Shown here piece after piece: positions 42,053 through 50,317 of a stretch of 64,000 nt of DNA. Below the pieces are notes generated by a model. It was not told the DNA's origin. It did no database searches and saw only the letters and a list, made by a program, of their open reading frames with translations. Numbering within the stretch: the first letter of the stretch is position 1; the number at the start of each line of letters is the position of its first letter. The position numbers and the translations under genes are program-made. The stretch comes from Microbacterium sp. W4I4 (GTDB taxonomy: Bacteria > Actinomycetota > Actinomycetes > Actinomycetales > Microbacteriaceae): positions 3,286,001 to 3,350,000 of the forward strand of contig NZ_JAUSXT010000001.1 of the NCBI RefSeq assembly GCF_030816235.1, given 5' to 3'.

Positions 42053-42066
42053 ATTTCCTATAGGAT
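42053..42066. promoter_or_regulatory. GntR-type operator, copy 1 (ATTTCCTATAGGAT)
   Basis: Contains the perfect palindrome TCCTATAGGA and a possible -10 box TAGGAT (42061-42066). The same 14 bases occur at 45887-45900. Site of the GntR repressor by inference. Confidence 0.65.
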
Positions 42067-42117: not shown

Positions 42118-43839
42118 ATGACGCGCTTGTTCAACGATCCAGGCGACTTCGCCAAGGAGGCGGCAGAGGGGCTCGCCCTCGCCTCGGCGCGATGGGTGCG
42201 TCCGGTCCTGGGCGGCGTGGTGCGATCGACCAGGGGGCCGGAGCCGACGGTCGCCGTAGTGATCGGCGGGGGCAGCGGTCACTACCCGGCGTTCGCCGGC
42301 CTGGTCGGGCCCGGCCTCGCTCACGGTGCGGCGATGGGGAACCTCTTCGCCTCGCCCTCCGCGCACCAGGTCCACTCTGTCGCGACTGCGGCGGACGAGG
42401 GCCGGGGAGTGCTGCTCAGTTACGGCAACTACGCCGGTGACGTGCTGCACTTCACGCAGGCTCAGGAGCGCATGCGGGCCGCGGGCATCGACTGCCGCAC
42501 GGTCACGATCACCGACGACATCTCCAGCGCACCTGTGCACGAGATCGAGAAGCGCCGCGGCATCGCGGGCGATCTCGTCGTCTTCAAGGTCGCGGGCGCG
42601 GCCGCCGAGTCCGGCGCCGACCTGGACGATGTGGAGCGCGTGGCCATCCACGCCAACGAGCGGACCCGCACCCTGGGTGTGGCCTTCGCCGGCTGCACTC
42701 TGCCCGGCGCCACCGAGCCGTTGTTCACCGTGCCGGAGGGGCGGATGGCGGTCGGACTCGGCATCCACGGAGAGCCCGGCATCGACGAGGTCGACGTCCC
42801 GTCCGCCCACGGCCTGGCCGAGCTCTTCGTCTCCTCGCTCCTGGAAGAGCTCCCCGACGGCGTCTCCCGCGAGGGTGCACGCGTCGTGCCCATCCTCAAC
42901 GGGCTCGGCAACGTCAAGTACGAGGAGCTGTACGTCGTGTACGCCTCCGTGCACCGGCTGCTTGAAGAAGCGGGTCTCACCGTCGTGTCGCCGGAGGTCG
43001 GCGAGTTCTGCACGAGCTTCGACATGGCCGGCGCCTCGCTGACACTGCTCTGGCTCGATGACGAGCTCGAAGAGCTCTGGCTCGCACCTTGCGACACCCC
43101 CGCCTTCCGCAGGGGAGCGGTCGAGGGGCGCGTCGAGGTGGAGCACGTCGATGTCGCGCAGGAGCAGCGGACCCTCGGCGAGGCCACGTCCGAGTCGCGC
43201 GAGGCGGCAGTCGTTCTCGTCCGAGCCTTCCAGGCGGTAGCGGGGGTGCTGGATGCCGAAGCCGACGAGCTGGGCCGCATCGACCGCATCGCCGGCGATG
43301 GCGACCACGGTATCGGGATGCAGCGCGGCAGCCGCGCGGCGGCGAAGGCTGCGCACGAGGCGTTCGAGATCGGTGGCGGCGCCGGCGGCGTGCTGCAGTG
43401 GGCGGCTGACGCCTGGGCCGACGACGGCGGCGGCACCTCGGGTGCCATCTGGGGCGAGATGCTGGCTGCGCTGGCCGTATCCTTCGGCGACTCGGCGGCG
43501 ATCGACGCGGAGCAGGTGCGCGTCGGGGTGCTGCGCATGAAGGACGCCGTGATGTCCTTCGGCAAGGCCAAGCCGGGTGACAAGACGATGATCGACGCGA
43601 TCGTGCCGTTCGCCGATCATCTCGACGAACAGGTGCGCGGCGGCGCCGGCCTGGTGCCTGCGTGGACGGATGCCGCCGCCGTCGCCACCGAGGCGGCCGA
43701 GGCCACCGCATCCCTCACCGCCAAGCTCGGCCGTGCCCGCTCGCACGGCGACAAGAGCCTCGGCACCCCGGATCCGGGCGCGGTGTCCTTCGCGCTCATC
43801 ACCCACACTGTTCTCGACATCCTGAAAGGGGATGACTGA
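42118..43839 (+). CDS. DhaK-DhaL fusion kinase (dihydroxyacetone/erythrulose kinase family)
   Basis: 573 residues. The N-terminal DhaK domain has [12 protein letters not shown] and the substrate-binding His217 in GLGIHGEPG; the C-terminal DhaL domain has [12 protein letters not shown] and [12 protein letters not shown] for ATP and Mg. In tetritol pathways this family phosphorylates L- or D-erythrulose (LerK/DerK). Next to RpiB- and TIM-type isomerases this is more likely than a dihydroxyacetone role. First gene of the unit behind the ATTTCCTATAGGAT site. Confidence 0.88.
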
Positions 43840-43840
43840 T

Positions 43841-44296
43841 ATGGGACTTCGACTCGTGATCGGCTCGGACGACGCCGGATTCGACTACAAGGAGCGCATC
43901 AAGGCCGACCTGCTGAACAATCCGCTGGTCTCCGAGGTGGTCGACGTCGGTGTCGACGCGGACGGCCACACCAACTACCCGACCGTCGCGACGACCGCGG
44001 CCGAGAAGGTGGCCGCAGGCGACGCCGACCGTGCCATCCTCATCTGCGGCACCGGACTGGGCGTCGCCATCGCGGCGAACAAGGTCGCCGGCATCCGCGC
44101 CGTCACCGCTCACGACTCCTACAGTGTGGAGCGCTCGGTGCTCTCCAACGATGCCCAGGTGCTGTGCATGGGGCAGCGGGTGGTCGGCATCGAGCTCGCC
44201 AGGCGCTTGGCCGCCGAGTGGCTCACCTACACGTTCGACCCGCAGAGCGCATCCGCCGAGAAGGTCCGCGAGATCTGCGCCTACGAGGGCGTCTGA
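43841..44296 (+). CDS. RpiB/LacA/LacB family sugar-phosphate isomerase (EryI-like)
   Basis: 151 residues with catalytic Cys69 in CGTGLG and the IGSDDAGF opening of RpiB. In erythritol-type pathways this family converts D-erythrulose 4-phosphate to D-erythrose 4-phosphate. The ATG at 43841 is preferred (GAAAGGGG 9 bases upstream); it follows the kinase stop by one base. Confidence 0.88.
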
Positions 44297-44306
44297 CGTC
44301 GCGACC

Positions 44307-45044
44307 ATGGCGAAGCGGATGCTGATCGGCGCGAGCCTGAAGATGTACTTCTCGCACGCGCAGACCGTGGCGTGGACCACCGCGGTCGCGGCACTGCTCG
44401 CGCAGCATCCGGCACGCGACCGGGTGGAGATGTTCGTCATCCCGCAGTATCCGTCGATCCCCGGCTGCCTCGAGGCGGCGGGCGGGCTCACCGTCGGCGC
44501 GCAGGACGTCTCCGAGCACGACTCGGGCGCGTTCACCGGCGAGGTGTCGGCCGCGGTCCTGGCGGAGCTCGGATGCCGATACGTCGAGGTCGGGCACGCG
44601 GAGCGGCGCCGGTTGTACGGCGACACCGATGAGGTCGTCGCCGCGAAGACCGCGGCGGCGATGCGCGCCGGACTCGTTCCGATCCTCTGCGTCGGCGAGG
44701 CGGAGCAGGTCGGGGACGAGGCCGCGGCCCTCGCCTGCTCCGCGCAGGTGGACTCCGCGCTCGCTCTCGTCGCCGACGTCGGCGAACTCGTCATCGCCTA
44801 CGAGCCGCTGTGGGCCATCGGCGCGCCCGCTCCGGCGCCGGCGGAGCACATCCGCGGCGTCTGCGACCGGCTGCGCGCACACGCGGATCTCCGGGGCCTG
44901 AGCGCCCGCGTGATCTACGGTGGTAGTGCAGGACCGGGAACCATCGCCGACATCGCAGACAGCGTCGACGGGATCTTCCTGGGCCGCTTCGCCCACGACC
45001 CGGAGGCGGTGCGGTCGATCCTGGATGAGGCCGCCGCAGTGTGA
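44307..45044 (+). CDS. triosephosphate isomerase-family enzyme (EryH-like)
   Basis: 245 residues with Lys12, His97 (VGHAERR) and catalytic Glu166 (AYEPLWAIG). The opening has SLKMY instead of NWKMN, a known mark of paralogues outside glycolysis. In erythritol catabolism a TIM paralogue (EryH) converts L-erythrulose 1-phosphate to D-erythrulose 4-phosphate. Placement next to the DhaK fusion and RpiB supports that. Confidence 0.87.
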   Translation: MAKRMLIGASLKMYFSHAQTVAWTTAVAALLAQHPARDRVEMFVIPQYPSIPGCLEAAGGLTVGAQDVSEHDSGAFTGEVSAAVLAELGCRYVEVGHAERRRLYGDTDEVVAAKTAAAMRAGLVPILCVGEAEQVGDEAAALACSAQVDSALALVADVGELVIAYEPLWAIGAPAPAPAEHIRGVCDRLRAHADLRGLSARVIYGGSAGPGTIADIADSVDGIFLGRFAHDPEAVRSILDEAAAV

Positions 45045-45074
45045 CGGGCGACGAGAGACGACGACGGAGAGCAG

Positions 45075-45794
45075 ATGGCTGGTGAGGGCCGCACGGCACC
45101 CGGATGGGACTCGACGATCGAGCGTCGGGGCCTGCGCGACCGCGTCTACGAGCGGATCCTGCAGCTGCTGCTGAGCGGTGAGGTCGCGCCGGGGGCGCGG
45201 CTCTCGATCGACACGCTCGCCCGCCAACTGGACGTGTCGCCGACCCCGGTGCGCGAGGCGATGGTGCATCTGGAGCGCACCGGCCTGGTCACCCGAGAGG
45301 CGCTCAAGGGCTACCGGGTCGCGCCGCCGCTGGGGGCGACACAGCTGCGCGAGCTGTTCGACGCGCGCATCATGCTCGAGATCGAAGCCGCCAGGCTGGC
45401 CACCCCCGCTGATCCCGACATGCTCGACGAGCTGCGAGAGGCCGAGGACGAGCATCGCCGCAGTGGTGAGCGCGTCATCGAGGCGATCCATGCGGGCAGC
45501 AACGACGTCGAGCTGACCACCGCGTACTTCGCCGCGGATGCGGCGTTCCATGAGGTGGTCTTCCGGCACTGCGGCAATCGCTATCTGCGACAGATGTCGG
45601 AGTCCCTCGGAGCTCAGCTGCACCGGATGCGGCAGAGCATGGTGCACGGGGTCACGGATGTGCGCGAGGCCATCGCCGAGCACGAGGCGATCCGCCAGGC
45701 GTTCCTCGCGGGCGACCCGGAGCAGCCCGCCCGGATGATGCGCCTGCACATCGAGGGAGTCCGGGCGAGATCGCTGGACCTGGAGAAGGACTGA
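45075..45794 (+). CDS. GntR family regulator (FCD type)
   Basis: 239 residues: winged HTH (LRDRVYERILQLLLSGEVAPG; LDVSPTPVREAMVHLERTG) and an all-helical FCD effector domain with FDARIMLEIEAARLA and the metal/ligand-type HEVVFRHCGNRYL. It lies between the two transcription units that both begin with ATTTCCTATAGGAT and is the likely repressor of both. The inducer is probably a pathway intermediate. Confidence 0.9.
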   Translation: MAGEGRTAPGWDSTIERRGLRDRVYERILQLLLSGEVAPGARLSIDTLARQLDVSPTPVREAMVHLERTGLVTREALKGYRVAPPLGATQLRELFDARIMLEIEAARLATPADPDMLDELREAEDEHRRSGERVIEAIHAGSNDVELTTAYFAADAAFHEVVFRHCGNRYLRQMSESLGAQLHRMRQSMVHGVTDVREAIAEHEAIRQAFLAGDPEQPARMMRLHIEGVRARSLDLEKD

Positions 45795-45886
45795 CCGCAG
45801 TCCTGGCGGCTGTGACGGCCGGCCTGCGATGCGCAGGGGAGTCGTGATGGCATCCCTGTCGAAAGCTGCCTCTTGCCTCTTTCTCT

Positions 45887-45900
45887 ATTTCCTATAGGAT
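45887..45900. promoter_or_regulatory. GntR-type operator, copy 2 (ATTTCCTATAGGAT)
   Basis: Same 14 bases as at 42053-42066. Here a promoter can be read: TTGCCT (45873-45878), 16 bases, TAGGAT (45895-45900), so the palindrome overlaps the -10 box as expected for repression. Confidence 0.7.
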
Positions 45901-45947
45901 CTAGGAAGACTCGAGATTCCGTCGAACACATCGTCAATGGAGCCGCA

Positions 45948-46946
45948 ATGACCGCAACGCCCGAACTCACCGCCGACAACTGGCCGATCGCCACCTGCAT
46001 GCATGGCTTCGCCGCGGTCGCCGCAGACGGAACCCGCCTGCACGACGCACCGTCCGAGCGGTGGGACGAGGTGTTCGGACAGGTCGAGCGCCTCGGGTTC
46101 GATGCGATCGAGATCGCCGACAGCCACATCCGTCCTTCCGACCTGACCCCCGCGCGTCGCGACGAGCTGAAGTCGATCGCCGACAGCCACGGCGTGCGCC
46201 TTCTCTCGGTGCACGTCCAGCGCCAGAGCGTCATCGAACCGGGCAAGGGCGAGCAGAACCTGGCCTACGCGCACCAGGCGATCGACGCTGCGGCCGAGCT
46301 GGGCATGCAGGTCTTCTCCACCGGGCTGCACCAGCCCTTCACCGAGGCCCAGCGCAAGGCGCTGTGGTTCTGGACGGTGCAGGGCCCGGTCGACCCCGAC
46401 GACGCGGAGACCCGCGCACTCGCCGTCCGCCGGCTGCGCGAACTGGGAGAGCACGCGGCATCCGTCGGCCTGCCGATGGCGCTGGAGATGTACGAGGACA
46501 CCTATCTCGGCACCGCCGACAGCGCCGTTCGGCTGATCGAGGAGATCGGGCTGGACAACGTCGGCCTCAACCCCGACATCGCCAACCTCATCCGACTGCA
46601 CCGTCCCATCGAGGACTGGCGCGAGATGCACGCGAAGACGCTGCCCTACGCCAACTACTGGCACGTGAAGAACTACACCCGCGACGAGGCCGGCGACGGC
46701 AGCTGGGCGACCTCCGTGCCGACCAGCATGCAGCTCGGGCTCATCGACTACCGCGCCATGGTCGCCGACGCCGTGCGCGTCGGCTTCCGCGGACCGTTCC
46801 TCATGGAGCAGTACGGCGGAGACAGCCTGGGCGTCTGCGCGACCAACCGCGACTACCTGCGCACGCTGCTTCCCGAAGACGGCGTGTCCGCATCGGGCGG
46901 CAACCGCACCCCGAACGCAACCGCCGCCCAGACCGTCAGCGCCTGA
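45948..46946 (+). CDS. TIM-barrel sugar isomerase/epimerase-like protein (AP endonuclease 2 family)
   Basis: 332 residues. The fold is the xylose isomerase-like TIM barrel: DAIEIADSHIRP, LLSVHVQRQ, ALEMYEDTYLGT, NVGLNPDIANL, NYWHVKNYTRD and FRGPFLMEQYGGD contain the Glu/Asp/His metal positions expected. Members epimerise sugars or, in the apionate pathway (OiaC), decarboxylate a 3-oxo sugar acid to L-erythrulose. The neighbouring 3-hydroxyacid dehydrogenase would suit the latter. An epimerase role is the alternative. Confidence 0.7.
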   Translation: MTATPELTADNWPIATCMHGFAAVAADGTRLHDAPSERWDEVFGQVERLGFDAIEIADSHIRPSDLTPARRDELKSIADSHGVRLLSVHVQRQSVIEPGKGEQNLAYAHQAIDAAAELGMQVFSTGLHQPFTEAQRKALWFWTVQGPVDPDDAETRALAVRRLRELGEHAASVGLPMALEMYEDTYLGTADSAVRLIEEIGLDNVGLNPDIANLIRLHRPIEDWREMHAKTLPYANYWHVKNYTRDEAGDGSWATSVPTSMQLGLIDYRAMVADAVRVGFRGPFLMEQYGGDSLGVCATNRDYLRTLLPEDGVSASGGNRTPNATAAQTVSA

Positions 46947-46971
46947 GCGCACCTACGAAGGAGACCGAGAA

Positions 46972-47943
46972 ATGACTCAGCAGGATCGTCCCGTCTACGC
47001 CGTCGTGGGCAGTGGCTACATGGGCGGCGGCATCGCGCAGTCGCTCGCGCTCTCGGGTGCGGACGTGCGCATCGCCGATGTCGACATCGAGATCGCCCGC
47101 AGCAATCGCGAGCGCCTGATCGCCGAGGCGGAGCAGTTCACCGCCGACGGACTCTTCCCCGAGGGGGCCTCCGCGACCATCGCCGAGCGCCTCACCGCCG
47201 CGACCATCGAGGATGCCGTCGCCGGCGCCTCGTTCATCGAAGAGGCGGTGCCCGAGAAGATCGAGATCAAGCACGCCACGCTGCGCCGCATCTCCGAGGC
47301 CGCAGCCCCCGACGCCGTCATCGGCAGCAACACCTCCACCATCCTCATCGAGAAGCTCGCCGAAGCGGTCACCAACCCCGGCCGCTTCCTGGGTGTGCAC
47401 TTCTCGAACCCGGCGCCGTTCATCCCCGGTGTCGAGCTGATCCCGCACGCCGGCACCGACGAGGCGACCCTTCCTGTCGTCGAGCAGATCGTCGCCGCCA
47501 CGGGCAAGGAGACAGCGCGCGTCAAGGACGCCACCGGCTTCGTGCTCAACCGCCTGCAGTACGCGCTGTTCCACGAGGCCACGCAGCTGGTCGAGGCCGG
47601 CGTCGCGACCGCAGAGGACATCGACACGATCGTGCGCACCACGTTCGGCTTCCGACTGCCCTTCTTCGGGCCGTTCGCGATCGCCGACATGGCAGGGCTC
47701 GACGTGTACGCGTTCTGCTACGCGTCGCTGCAGACCGAGTTCCCCGAGCGCTTCGCGACGCCGAAGGCCCTCTCCGACCTCGTCGAGGCGGGAAAGCTCG
47801 GCACCAAGACCGGCGCCGGCTTCCTCGACGTCCCCGCCGAGCGCACCCCCGAGCTCATCGCGTACCGCAACAAGGCGTACGTCGCGATGAAGAAGCTCAT
47901 CGACGAGCTCGGTCCGGCCCCCATCCACCCGGCAGCCGGCTGA
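46972..47943 (+). CDS. 3-hydroxyacyl-CoA dehydrogenase-family enzyme (3-hydroxyacid dehydrogenase)
   Basis: 323 residues. Rossmann motif GSGYMGGG at 13-20, SNTST with Ser122, and GVHFSNPAPF with catalytic His143 and Asn146. The stand-alone length matches L-gulonate 3-dehydrogenase and carnitine dehydrogenase rather than fatty-acid oxidation complexes. No CoA-pathway gene is nearby; in this cluster it likely oxidises C3 of a sugar acid to a beta-keto acid. AAGGAGA precedes the ATG. Confidence 0.78.
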   Translation: MTQQDRPVYAVVGSGYMGGGIAQSLALSGADVRIADVDIEIARSNRERLIAEAEQFTADGLFPEGASATIAERLTAATIEDAVAGASFIEEAVPEKIEIKHATLRRISEAAAPDAVIGSNTSTILIEKLAEAVTNPGRFLGVHFSNPAPFIPGVELIPHAGTDEATLPVVEQIVAATGKETARVKDATGFVLNRLQYALFHEATQLVEAGVATAEDIDTIVRTTFGFRLPFFGPFAIADMAGLDVYAFCYASLQTEFPERFATPKALSDLVEAGKLGTKTGAGFLDVPAERTPELIAYRNKAYVAMKKLIDELGPAPIHPAAG

Positions 47944-47954
47944 AGGGCATCCGC

Positions 47955-48725
47955 ATGGCAACTCCCTTCCCCGCCCCGCGCACGGTCATCCTGACCGGTG
48001 CGGCCAGCCCGCGCGGCATCGGTCGCGGCACCGCCTTCCACCTCGCCGAGCTCGGCTGGAACGTCGGCATCATCGACATCGACGCGGATGCCGCGGCGCG
48101 CACCGCCGCGGAGGTCGCCGACGCTCACGGAGTGCAGGCCGTCGGAGTCGGTGCGAACGTCGCCGACCGGGCGGCAGCCGTCGCCGCGGTCGATGAGCTC
48201 GAAGCGGCGCTTCCGCAGATCGTCGCGCTGGTGAACTTCGCAGGCGTGTCCTCTCCGGTGCCGTACCTCGAGGTCACGCCCGAGGAGTGGCACCGCGTCG
48301 AGTCGATCAACATCGACGGCGTGCACTGGGTCACCCAGCGCGTCGCGAGGACGCTCGCCGAGAACGGCGTGGGCCGGCTCATCGGCATCTCCTCGGTGTC
48401 CGCCCAGCGCGGCGGCGGGACCTACTCCAAGACGCCGTACTCCGCATCCAAAGCCGCCGTGATCGGCCTGATGCGCTCGATCGCCCGAGAGCTGGGACCG
48501 GTCGGCGTGACCGCGAACGTCATCTCTCCCGGACCCATCGACACCGACATCATGGGCGGGACCCTGTCGGAGGAGCGCAAGTCAGCGATGGCGGCCGACG
48601 GCGTGCTGACGCGGATCGGCACACCGCAGGACATCGCGGCCGCCGTCGCCTACCTGATCAGCGAGGACGCCGGATTCGTGACGGGCCAGACCCTGAACGT
48701 CGACGGCGGACTCTACATGCACTGA
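47955..48725 (+). CDS. SDR family oxidoreductase of the sugar cluster
   Basis: 256 residues: TGAASPRGIG at 14-23, NFAGVS, Tyr162 and Lys166 (YSASK), and a closing GQTLNVDGGLYMH. In related clusters such SDRs oxidise a polyol or aldose (for example D-threitol dehydrogenase). It follows the 3-hydroxyacid dehydrogenase after 11 bases. Confidence 0.82.
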   Translation: MATPFPAPRTVILTGAASPRGIGRGTAFHLAELGWNVGIIDIDADAAARTAAEVADAHGVQAVGVGANVADRAAAVAAVDELEAALPQIVALVNFAGVSSPVPYLEVTPEEWHRVESINIDGVHWVTQRVARTLAENGVGRLIGISSVSAQRGGGTYSKTPYSASKAAVIGLMRSIARELGPVGVTANVISPGPIDTDIMGGTLSEERKSAMAADGVLTRIGTPQDIAAAVAYLISEDAGFVTGQTLNVDGGLYMH

Positions 48726-48751
48726 CATCCCGCACCGACGAGGAGAACACC

Positions 48752-48853
48752 ATGCTCGGATCCTGGTCCAAAAGTCGTCTCATCTTCCTGATCATCGGGG
48801 TGACCTGCGTCGCCATCGGCCTCGCCCTGATCATCCCCGGGCTCGGGTCCTGA
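48752..48853 (+). CDS. 33-residue single-pass membrane protein
   Basis: Reads MLGSWSKSRLIFLIIGV and so on, with one hydrophobic helix at about 9-29 ending LIIPGLGS. GAGGAG stands 6 bases before the ATG, a strong site. It is placed between the SDR and the MFS carrier, both in the same direction. It could be an accessory peptide of the carrier. No family is known to me. Confidence 0.6.
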   Translation: MLGSWSKSRLIFLIIGVTCVAIGLALIIPGLGS

Positions 48854-48919
48854 CGCGCACAGCACCATCTGATCCATCACTGCCCGATCCCGGGCGCCGA
48901 TCTGCTCAAAGGAGAGTCA

Positions 48920-50317
48920 ATGTCACATCAGAAGTTCGGCGCGGCCACCCGCGCCAACGCCACAGTCGCGAAGGGGCTGCTGGCGAATCCGAATCTCACC
49001 AGCGGCATCCGCAAAGCCACCTTCCGGCTCATGCCGATGCTGATCATCCTGTACTTCATCGCCTTCCTCGACCGCACCAACGTCGGCTTCGCCGAGGCCG
49101 CGATGGAGGTCGACCGCGGGATCACCGCGGGCGCCTACGCGCTCGGCGCCGGCATCTTCTTCATCGGGTACGCGCTGTTCGAGATCCCCTCGAACCTGCT
49201 GCTCGACAAGTTCGGAGCCCGGTTCTGGCTGGCCCGCATCGCGGTCACGTGGGGCATCGTGGCGGCGGCGTTCGCGTTCGTCAACGGCGAGACGATGTTC
49301 ATCATCCTGCGCTTCCTGCTCGGTGTCACCGAGGCGGGGCTCTTCCCGGGCGTCATCATGTTCCTGGCGCAGTGGTTCCCGAACAAGCGGCGCGTGCAGA
49401 TGTTCGCGCTGTTCTACCTCGCGCAGCCGTTCTCGCAGATGCTCGGCGCCCCGCTGTCCGGCGGCCTGGTCAGCTTCGGTGACAAGGTCACGCCGTGGGC
49501 CGGATGGCAGGTCATGTTCTTCGTCGAGGGTGCACTGGCGGTCGTCGCCGGCATCGCGGCGCTCTTCTTCCTAGTCGACTCACCGCAGAAGGCCAAGTTC
49601 CTCACGGACGAGGAGAAGGCCGCGATGAAGGAGGTCATGGATCACGAGGACTCGGTCAAGGAGGCGGACGGTCCCCGGGGCATCGCCGCAGCGCTGGTGA
49701 ACTGGAAGGTGTGGTACTTCACCATCATCTACTTCTGCCTGCAGATCGCTGTCTACGGCACCACCTTCTACCTGCCGCAGCAGGTCTCCGCACTGATCGG
49801 TGAGAAGGTCGGCTGGCAGGTCGGTCTGGTCTCGGCCATCCCGTGGGCTGTGGGTCTCTTCGCCTGCTACTACGTCGGCAAGCACGCCACCACGGTCCGC
49901 CGTCGCCGCGTCTGGGGCGCTCTGTTCTTCATCGTCACCGGTCTCGCCATCCTCGCCTCGGCCTGGGCGGGAGCGAACGCACAGGGGCTGCTCGGAATCC
50001 TCGCGATCACCGTCGCCGTCGCGGCGTTCCTGTCCGTGGGGCCGATCACCTGGTCGTTCCCGACGTCGTTCCTCACCGGCGCCGCCGCGGCCACGGGCAT
50101 CGGCCTCATCAACTCGCTGGGCAACCTCGGTGGGTTCGTCGCGCCGATCATGCGCACGGGCATCAACGAGGCCGCTCCCACCGACAGCGGTGCGTGGGGT
50201 GTGGTTTCGCTCGGCGTGTTCGCCTTCCTCGCCGCCGCCATGATGTGGGCCACACGGTTCTTCAGCTCGAAGGCCGACGCCCTGCTGGTCGACGACGAGA
50301 AGGTTCTCGCTCACTGA
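48920..50317 (+). CDS. MFS transporter, anion:cation symporter (ACS) type
   Basis: 465 residues, 12 helices. The opening IILYFIAFLDRTNVGFA and GIFFIGYALFEIPSNLLLDKFGARFWLARI are typical of the ACS family (hexuronate, glucarate, tartrate, phthalate carriers). This points to an acidic sugar or small organic acid as the substrate of the whole cluster. AAAGGAG precedes the ATG. Confidence 0.88.
   Translation: MSHQKFGAATRANATVAKGLLANPNLTSGIRKATFRLMPMLIILYFIAFLDRTNVGFAEAAMEVDRGITAGAYALGAGIFFIGYALFEIPSNLLLDKFGARFWLARIAVTWGIVAAAFAFVNGETMFIILRFLLGVTEAGLFPGVIMFLAQWFPNKRRVQMFALFYLAQPFSQMLGAPLSGGLVSFGDKVTPWAGWQVMFFVEGALAVVAGIAALFFLVDSPQKAKFLTDEEKAAMKEVMDHEDSVKEADGPRGIAAALVNWKVWYFTIIYFCLQIAVYGTTFYLPQQVSALIGEKVGWQVGLVSAIPWAVGLFACYYVGKHATTVRRRRVWGALFFIVTGLAILASAWAGANAQGLLGILAITVAVAAFLSVGPITWSFPTSFLTGAAAATGIGLINSLGNLGGFVAPIMRTGINEAAPTDSGAWGVVSLGVFAFLAAAMMWATRFFSSKADALLVDDEKVLAH

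Follow-up and report, generated by a model that had tools for sequence, protein, structure and literature searches.

A conserved cluster of eight co-regulated genes, which likely encodes a pathway that breaks down a sugar acid by way of erythrulose, lies in a 64,000-nucleotide stretch (the window) of the genome of Microbacterium sp. W4I4, a genome of 3.84 Mb in one contig (NZ_JAUSXT010000001.1, of which the window is positions 3,286,001 to 3,350,000 of the forward strand). All eight genes, and an open reading frame (ORF) of 33 codons, are on the + strand. The gene coordinates had been proposed in an earlier reading of the letters alone (the sequence-only reading), and they proved correct when ORFs and Pfam and NCBIfam matches were checked; the GntR/FCD regulator, the 33-codon ORF and the operator pair are additions to that reading. 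In window coordinates, the features are as follows.

42053..42066, no strand: operator copy 1, palindrome ATTTCCTATAGGAT, upstream of the kinase gene
42118..43839, +: DAK kinase, a fusion of DhaK and DhaL, proposed as a LerK-like kinase of L-erythrulose (Pfam Dak1, 362 bits; Dak2, 153 bits)
43832..44296, +: RpiB-type isomerase, proposed D-erythrulose-4-phosphate isomerase, EryI/DerI-like (Pfam LacAB_rpiB)
44307 (first ATG)..45044, +: TIM-family isomerase, proposed L-erythrulose-1-phosphate isomerase, EryH/LerI-like (Pfam TIM)
45075..45794, +: GntR/FCD regulator, proposed operator binder (Pfam GntR and FCD)
45887..45900, no strand: operator copy 2, ATTTCCTATAGGAT, upstream of the TIM-barrel gene
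45948..46946, +: AP_endonuc_2 TIM barrel, proposed 3-oxo-acid decarboxylase (PF01261, 102 bits; curated cut-off 31.1)
46972..47943, +: 3HCDH-family dehydrogenase (HADH), proposed sugar-acid C3 dehydrogenase (Pfam 3HCDH_N and 3HCDH)
47955..48725, +: FabG-type SDR, accessory dehydrogenase (Pfam/NCBIfam)
48752..48853, +: ORF of 33 codons, hydrophobic peptide (conservation in tblastn)
48920..50317, +: anion:cation symporter (ACS) type MFS carrier, proposed for sugar-acid uptake (top NCBIfam match TIGR00893)

Conservation was counted over two sets of loci. A scan with HADH gave 296 relatives, of which the best 80 make up the named loci, so that all of these contain HADH by construction; the named protein matches are mostly from Microbacterium. 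The 37 extra loci are a non-random set composed of L092, L093, five plasmid loci (L098 to L101 and L103, drawn from 96 plasmid records) and 30 loci hand-picked, mostly for low identity, among TIM-barrel matches that occurred in 19 of 394 genomes in one search and in 66 of 249 in another. L090 and L091, whose places are covered by L093 and L092, were left out of the counts. Neighbours were counted within 8 kb of the TIM-barrel gene, or of HADH if the TIM barrel was absent from the stretch, and by tblastn because a gene-calling script based on GC position gave some wrong ORFs.

The gene set recurs across the 80 named relatives in several gene orders, and this recurrence exceeds chance. Neighbours include the TIM barrel in 78, DAK in 70, RpiB in 68, the TIM-family isomerase in 64, the SDR in 72, the MFS carrier in 68, GntR in 69 and a GntP carrier in 4 of these loci. 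The two named loci without a TIM barrel, L020 and L072, have only 2.3 and 0.8 kb of sequence upstream of HADH. At the phylum level, a TIM barrel with an E value of 1e-40 or better was found in 3 of 149 genomes. The TIM barrel and HADH are adjacent on the same strand, at most 250 bp apart, in 63 of 78 loci, and in every locus where DAK and HADH are on opposite strands, the TIM barrel is found on the HADH side (25/25; 22/22 named and 3/3 extra loci). Eleven of 89 TIM-barrel/HADH loci, nine named and two extra, have no DAK nearby. Genome-wide searches for seven of these named loci (L015, L016, L018, L032, L044, L052 and L070) detected a kinase with 58% identity or more in each genome (7/7), and for L015 and L032 this kinase is adjoined by genes for RpiB and TIM (L094 and L096). 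Of the 68 named loci with a close MFS gene, 52 have a tblastn match to the 33-codon ORF at most 400 bp 5' of that gene; the hydrophobic peptide may be a small protein that works together with the carrier. LtnD-like genes occur in 20 and DUF1537 genes in 22 of the 80 named loci, and PdxA and TctA in one each (L041). About a quarter of named loci (e.g., L001 and L056) have LtnD-like and DUF1537 kinase genes near the cluster, without OtnC. One contig, labelled Vibrio cholerae 35D, bears an actinobacterial-type cluster with an HADH of 77% identity (L069), and is probably a contamination or wrongly labelled.

Both half-operons form one conserved regulon under one operator. The 14-base palindrome ATTTCCTATAGGAT is common to the intergenic regions upstream of the DAK and TIM-barrel genes. 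In the whole genome, TTCCTATAGGA has two exact occurrences, both at these operator places, with 0.23 occurrences expected from base composition. With at most one mismatch, TCCTATAGGA is found in 91 of the 117 loci, and 175 of 176 sites of this type have a cluster-type gene no more than 400 bp downstream (TIM barrel, 88; DAK, 54; GntR, 20; TctC, 6; MFS, 3; HADH, 2; PdxA, 1; GntP, 1). A search with WTCCTATAGGAW in 47 relative genomes, out of 50 chosen, detected 85 sites, spread over 45 of these genomes, and a reversed-pattern control detected none; 76 of the 85 sites fall inside cluster loci. Seven of the nine outside sites were inspected (all except those of G804 and G814). Two of them precede DAK genes (L149 and L087). 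The L058 genome, which has no SDR in its cluster, has one site before a gene for an SDR 45% identical to that of the window (L151). A further site is beside a gene judged by eye to be transposase-like (L146). The other three (L147, L148 and L150) are beside other GntR genes, 34 to 41% identical to the regulator of the window, whose neighbours, again by eye, include a GMC oxidoreductase, enolase-family and ALDH genes, and a DUF1537-PdxA pair; related GntR regulators may share the operator. We infer that the GntR/FCD protein binds the operator pair.

The first half-operon combines enzymes of the DAK, TIM and RpiB families, as does the LerK-LerI-DerI trunk. According to PMC10733421, LerK, LerI and DerI convert L-erythrulose to erythrose 4-phosphate, and PMC10733421 and PMC5992420 describe this trunk for tetritol pathways. 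The kinase of the window is 59 to 60% identical to the kinases of L094 and L102, and the TIM-family isomerase is 49 to 51% identical to the TIM proteins of apionate-type clusters. L094, in the genome of L015, has DAK-RpiB-TIM and, after these, genes for an OiaC-like TIM barrel of PF01261, an ApnO-like PGDH_C protein matching 5t57, an SDR and an ApnL-like protein that matches the D-apionate lactonase model NF049900 below its cut-off; L097 and Erwinia L102 have genes for the kinase, TIM, OiaC-like and ApnO-like proteins. We read L094, L097 and L102 as D-apionate clusters. The RpiB-type protein is above the cut-offs for RPI_actino, a ribose-5-phosphate isomerase equivalog, and for two general RpiB subfamily models. 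The roles of the kinase and the two isomerases are proposed by context more than by sequence. The genome of W4I4 has a second DAK-RpiB-TIM trio at 3187000-3206500 (L110; 67, 81 and 59% identical), with no exact copy of the operator core, near what by eye are a LacI-type gene and a divergent oxidoreductase plus TIM-barrel pair. It also has, at 1661500-1681000 (L111), a DAK-RpiB-SDR operon with genes that by eye are ABC-transporter-like and FGGY-kinase-like; this operon looks like one for threitol use.

HADH-type proteins carry the names 3-hydroxybutyryl-CoA or 3-hydroxyacyl-CoA dehydrogenase in public records. The sequence-only reading had assigned the enzyme to the gulonate-dehydrogenase kind. 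This assignment was not supported, as HADH scores 137 bits with the lambda-crystallin homologue versus 188 bits with FHMPC dehydrogenase and 181 bits with hydroxybutyryl-CoA dehydrogenase among solved relatives. Comparison with ApnO, also suggested in that reading, showed two different families: ApnO-like proteins are of the PGDH_C family and the window enzyme is of the 3HCDH family. S122, H143, E155 and N193 are invariant over 13 HADH homologues, and correspond to the catalytic Ser, His, Glu and Asn of the 3-hydroxyacyl-CoA dehydrogenase fold family. No invariant lysine was found over the same homologues in the arm at residues 37 to 78, whose lysines we take to bind coenzyme A (CoA) in the CoA-dependent enzymes; this hints at a substrate without CoA. 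No CoA ligase was detected among the eight operon proteins with Pfam and NCBIfam.

The dehydrogenase and the carrier are exchanged among the loci. Near the TIM barrel, the 37 extra loci have HADH in 11, a PdxA-family enzyme in 13 and an LtnD-like (HIBADH-type) enzyme in 5, with L140 having both HADH and LtnD. PdxA is paired with a TCT carrier in Rhizobiales and Actinobacteria, the LtnD type with GntP (L103) and HADH with GntP (L092). An MFS (ACS type), GntP or TCT carrier is present in 72 of the 80 named and 22 of the 37 extra loci; none of these three kinds was detected in the other 8 named and 15 extra loci. GntP was found in L020, L042, L058, L069, L092, L103 and L120, with a weak match of 28% in L142. 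NCBIfam backs the assignment in L020, L042 and L092, and in L020, L042, L058 and L069 GntP is in place of the MFS carrier. TctA is present in 12 of the extra loci. By eye, L132 has an ABC-type binding protein. The cluster of L041 has one TIM barrel and one kinase yet both an HADH-SDR-MFS and a PdxA-TctCBA set, and an operator site precedes each of the DAK, TIM-barrel and PdxA genes; this suggests that several dehydrogenases feed one downstream route. On pSymB of Sinorhizobium meliloti (L098), PdxA, TctCBA and the TIM barrel are together with a DAK frame that is missing from the PLSDB gene table, and a relative of the TIM barrel is on 75 Sinorhizobium plasmid records.

The sequence-only reading had argued for a route from an acid to erythrulose, and this logic is supported by the acid carriers of most loci, the exchange of hydroxyacid dehydrogenases, the kinase and TIM shared with apionate-type clusters and the single operator over both halves. 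Our preferred reading, to which we give a probability of roughly 0.55, is a GntR/FCD regulon for oxidation of a pentonate at C3, decarboxylation to L-erythrulose and phosphorylation en route to erythrose 4-phosphate. From sequence and gene context we infer all of the catalytic steps and the substrate. The MFS carrier would import a pentonate, most likely L-arabinonate or L-ribonate, and HADH would oxidize it at C3 to the 3-oxo-pentonate, from which the metal-dependent TIM barrel would produce L-erythrulose and CO2. The DAK kinase would then form L-erythrulose 1-phosphate, the TIM-family enzyme would convert this into D-erythrulose 4-phosphate, and RpiB would yield D-erythrose 4-phosphate, which would enter the pentose phosphate pathway. 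The FabG-type SDR would probably convert another stereoisomer to the same 3-oxo acid. More tentatively, and with odds that we put somewhat below even, the clusters may represent a convergent trunk, in which unrelated C3 dehydrogenases turn different pentonates into the same 3-oxo acid, from which a single, new decarboxylase of the TIM-barrel type leads to erythrulose and erythrose 4-phosphate; HADH would serve one C3 stereochemistry and the FabG-type SDR the other, with the PdxA, HIBADH/LtnD and Iso_dh types contributing also.

The choice of substrate is based on stereochemistry and on neighbouring genes. The HADH fold family acts on a 3S hydroxyl and an L-erythrulose product requires 4S, and L-arabinonate and L-ribonate have both. 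In L015 and L016, the TIM barrel-HADH pair directly follows araB-araD-araA-type genes, of which araB is assigned by position (its NCBIfam match is XylB, below the cut-off), and an arabinofuranosidase gene adjoins the clusters, on the other strand in L016. L126 has araB, araD and araA upstream, and L132 and L139 have an arabinofuranosidase nearby. Hence, araA or ArfA is within 8 kb in 5 of the 117 loci (L015, L016, L126, L132 and L139) versus about 1.1 expected, given one araA per genome (7/7 genomes), 33 ArfA copies in 40 genomes, and rounded genome and stretch sizes. Outside the 117 loci, G546 has an ArfA gene 136 bp from the TIM barrel. The stereochemistry and the arabinose-gene neighbours point weakly to L-arabinonate; other loci may serve other stereoisomers.

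Several observations weigh against this reading. The arabinose-gene enrichment is modest (P of about 0.005, or 0.02 with the sister loci L015 and L016 as one), and L015 and L016 are without an operator site, with no sites at all in the genome of L015. The kinase is about as close (58% identity) to that of a tetritol-type neighbour, L095, which adjoins a zinc dehydrogenase gene, as to the apionate-type kinases. The isomerase roles rest on context because the TIM-family protein is nearer to the canonical TIM of its own genome (41%) than to EryH of Rhizobium leguminosarum L112 (37%), and because the RpiB protein, although above the cut-off of the ribose-5-phosphate isomerase model, has 143 bits with the rhizobial D-erythrulose-4-phosphate isomerase model, whose cut-off is 240. 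In nine of the 37 extra loci, neither HADH nor PdxA nor LtnD was found within 8 kb: L116 and L137 have an Iso_dh-family gene, L127 and L145 have SDR homologues (49 to 67%) and no clear partner dehydrogenase was found in the other five. The TIM barrel of L145 lies next to an ABC-type binding protein. Enzymes of the PdxA and Iso_dh families themselves release CO2, so that a separate decarboxylase would be redundant in these variants, and in both loci with PdxA on the other strand (L117 and L118; 2/2) the TIM barrel goes with DAK.

The function of the TIM barrel is the point on which the most serious alternative differs. None of the kinase, TIM-family, TIM-barrel, HADH and MFS proteins reaches the cut-off of a substrate-specific NCBIfam equivalog, and nor does the SDR among the best 25 of 218 NCBIfam families; for the MFS carrier, the best NCBIfam match, TIGR00893 (D-galactonate transporter), is below its cut-off at 269 bits. 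The closest solved relative of the TIM barrel among the matches listed is 5tnv, a Mg complex from M. smegmatis of 42 to 44% identity, whose title assigns no function. As judged with hhalign against single comparator sequences, the protein is as near to the 3-epimerase UlaE (E value of 2.6e-9) as to OiaC-like proteins (1.5e-8), and the OiaC-like relation is remote (probability of 95.5, 22% identity over 229 columns), with the OiaC identity of the comparator genes (L094, L097 and L102) itself resting on gene context. Among the 50 fold-search matches listed, ketose 3-epimerases make up most of the nearest folds that have an assigned function, and no match is named OiaC. An HVK motif, considered as an OiaC-specific mark of the decarboxylase, was dropped because UlaE has it too. 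The TIM barrel could be a 3-epimerase of erythrulose or its phosphate, an analogue of EryC, in the same acid-to-tetrulose route, with CO2 lost on the dehydrogenase or spontaneously. In favour of such an epimerase are the slightly better UlaE score and the fold neighbours just given, the alignment of four metal-ligand positions with those of UlaE (the ligand roles being presumed), the PdxA and Iso_dh partners able to decarboxylate, the grouping with DAK in both PdxA-split loci and an isomerase complement like EryC-EryH-EryI of the erythritol cluster L112. On the other side, the TIM barrel has no match to EryC of the erythritol cluster (probability of 0.8), so that the clustering with tetrulose epimerases named in the sequence-only reading as grounds for rejection was not seen in this comparison; it follows HADH in all 25 split loci and occurs without DAK nearby in 11 of 89. 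R92, R216, R219 and K241 are invariant in 17 family members, with R92 and K241 directly after predicted strands; this is compatible with an anionic substrate, be it a sugar acid or a phosphate. We consider the epimerase doubtful, with an appreciable chance of being right, and 3-oxo-acid decarboxylase the best reading of the TIM barrel, with 3-epimerase as the alternative.

Other explanations place the whole cluster in a different pathway. An improbable one is a C4 acid route, in which oxidation of a tetronate at C3 and decarboxylation would give dihydroxyacetone, and DAK and TIM would lead to triose phosphates. DAK and TIM are indeed the classical families of dihydroxyacetone kinase and triose isomerase, and LtnD-like and DUF1537 genes recur near the named loci; however, RpiB is near 68 of 80 of them, the cluster TIM is less like the canonical TIM than like the apionate-type TIM, OtnC is in 0 of 117 loci and the TIM barrel has no match to OtnI (hhalign probability of 4.6). 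The D-apionate pathway with replaced enzymes, suggested by the common kinase and isomerases and the TIM barrel's OiaC-like relation, is highly improbable. D-Apionate has a tertiary C3 alcohol, on which a plain C3 dehydrogenase would be unworkable, and the genome of L015 has a separate apionate-type cluster (L094). OiaC-like and ApnO-like genes were found in none of the 80 named loci and in 1 of the 37 extra loci (L131), on the opposite strand and with their own TIM and RpiB. Slightly less probable still is catabolism of a tetritol (erythritol or threitol), to which the DAK-RpiB-TIM trio and the SDR would correspond, as would L145, where these genes and the TIM barrel adjoin an ABC-type binding protein; against this are the acid-type carriers of most loci, the absence of EryC from all 117 and the separate DAK-RpiB-SDR operon with ABC-type genes in the same genome (L111), which has no exact copy of the operator core.

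The preferred pentonate route has counterparts among known systems. Carter et al. in 2018 reportedly described a D-apionate pathway by ApnO, OiaC, LerK, LerI and DerI, in which OiaC yields L-erythrulose. Apionate breakdown by OiaC is thus a known pathway of the same outline: a dehydrogenase and a TIM barrel of PF01261 feed a kinase and isomerases of the families seen here, whereas in the window HADH replaces the PGDH_C enzyme ApnO and the TIM barrel is only remotely OiaC-like. The tetritol pathways (EltD/LerK/LerI/DerI and EryABC-EryH-EryI) have in common with our route the trunk from L-erythrulose to erythrose 4-phosphate, but the window route would enter it from an acid and its loci have no EryC (0/117). 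The tetronate pathway LtnD-OtnI-OtnK-OtnC (E. coli ygbJ-M) is alike in the oxidation of a sugar acid and decarboxylation to a ketose, and in the relatives of LtnD and DUF1537 near about a quarter of named loci, and unlike in that OtnC was found in none of the 117 loci and the TIM barrel is not OtnI-like. The mammalian-type L-gulonate 3-dehydrogenase (the lambda-crystallin homologue) precedes a decarboxylation to L-xylulose. It too is an enzyme of the 3HCDH fold that yields a 3-oxo aldonate, but it is not of the subfamily nearest to HADH, and the product proposed here is one carbon shorter.

If the proposed route is correct, it would give a function to the TIM-barrel family of 5tnv, to proteins labelled 3-hydroxybutyryl-CoA or 3-hydroxyacyl-CoA dehydrogenase, and to gene sets of soil and plant Actinobacteria and Rhizobiales, such as that on pSymB of Sinorhizobium meliloti. 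The operator lets the regulon be traced in genomes and makes the hypothesis directly testable. These bacteria would have a path from pentonates to erythrose 4-phosphate that runs through a decarboxylation. Under the convergent-trunk reading, such a path to a C4 sugar, open to L-arabinonate and its stereoisomers, would differ from the Weimberg/Dahms-type routes, which use dehydratases.

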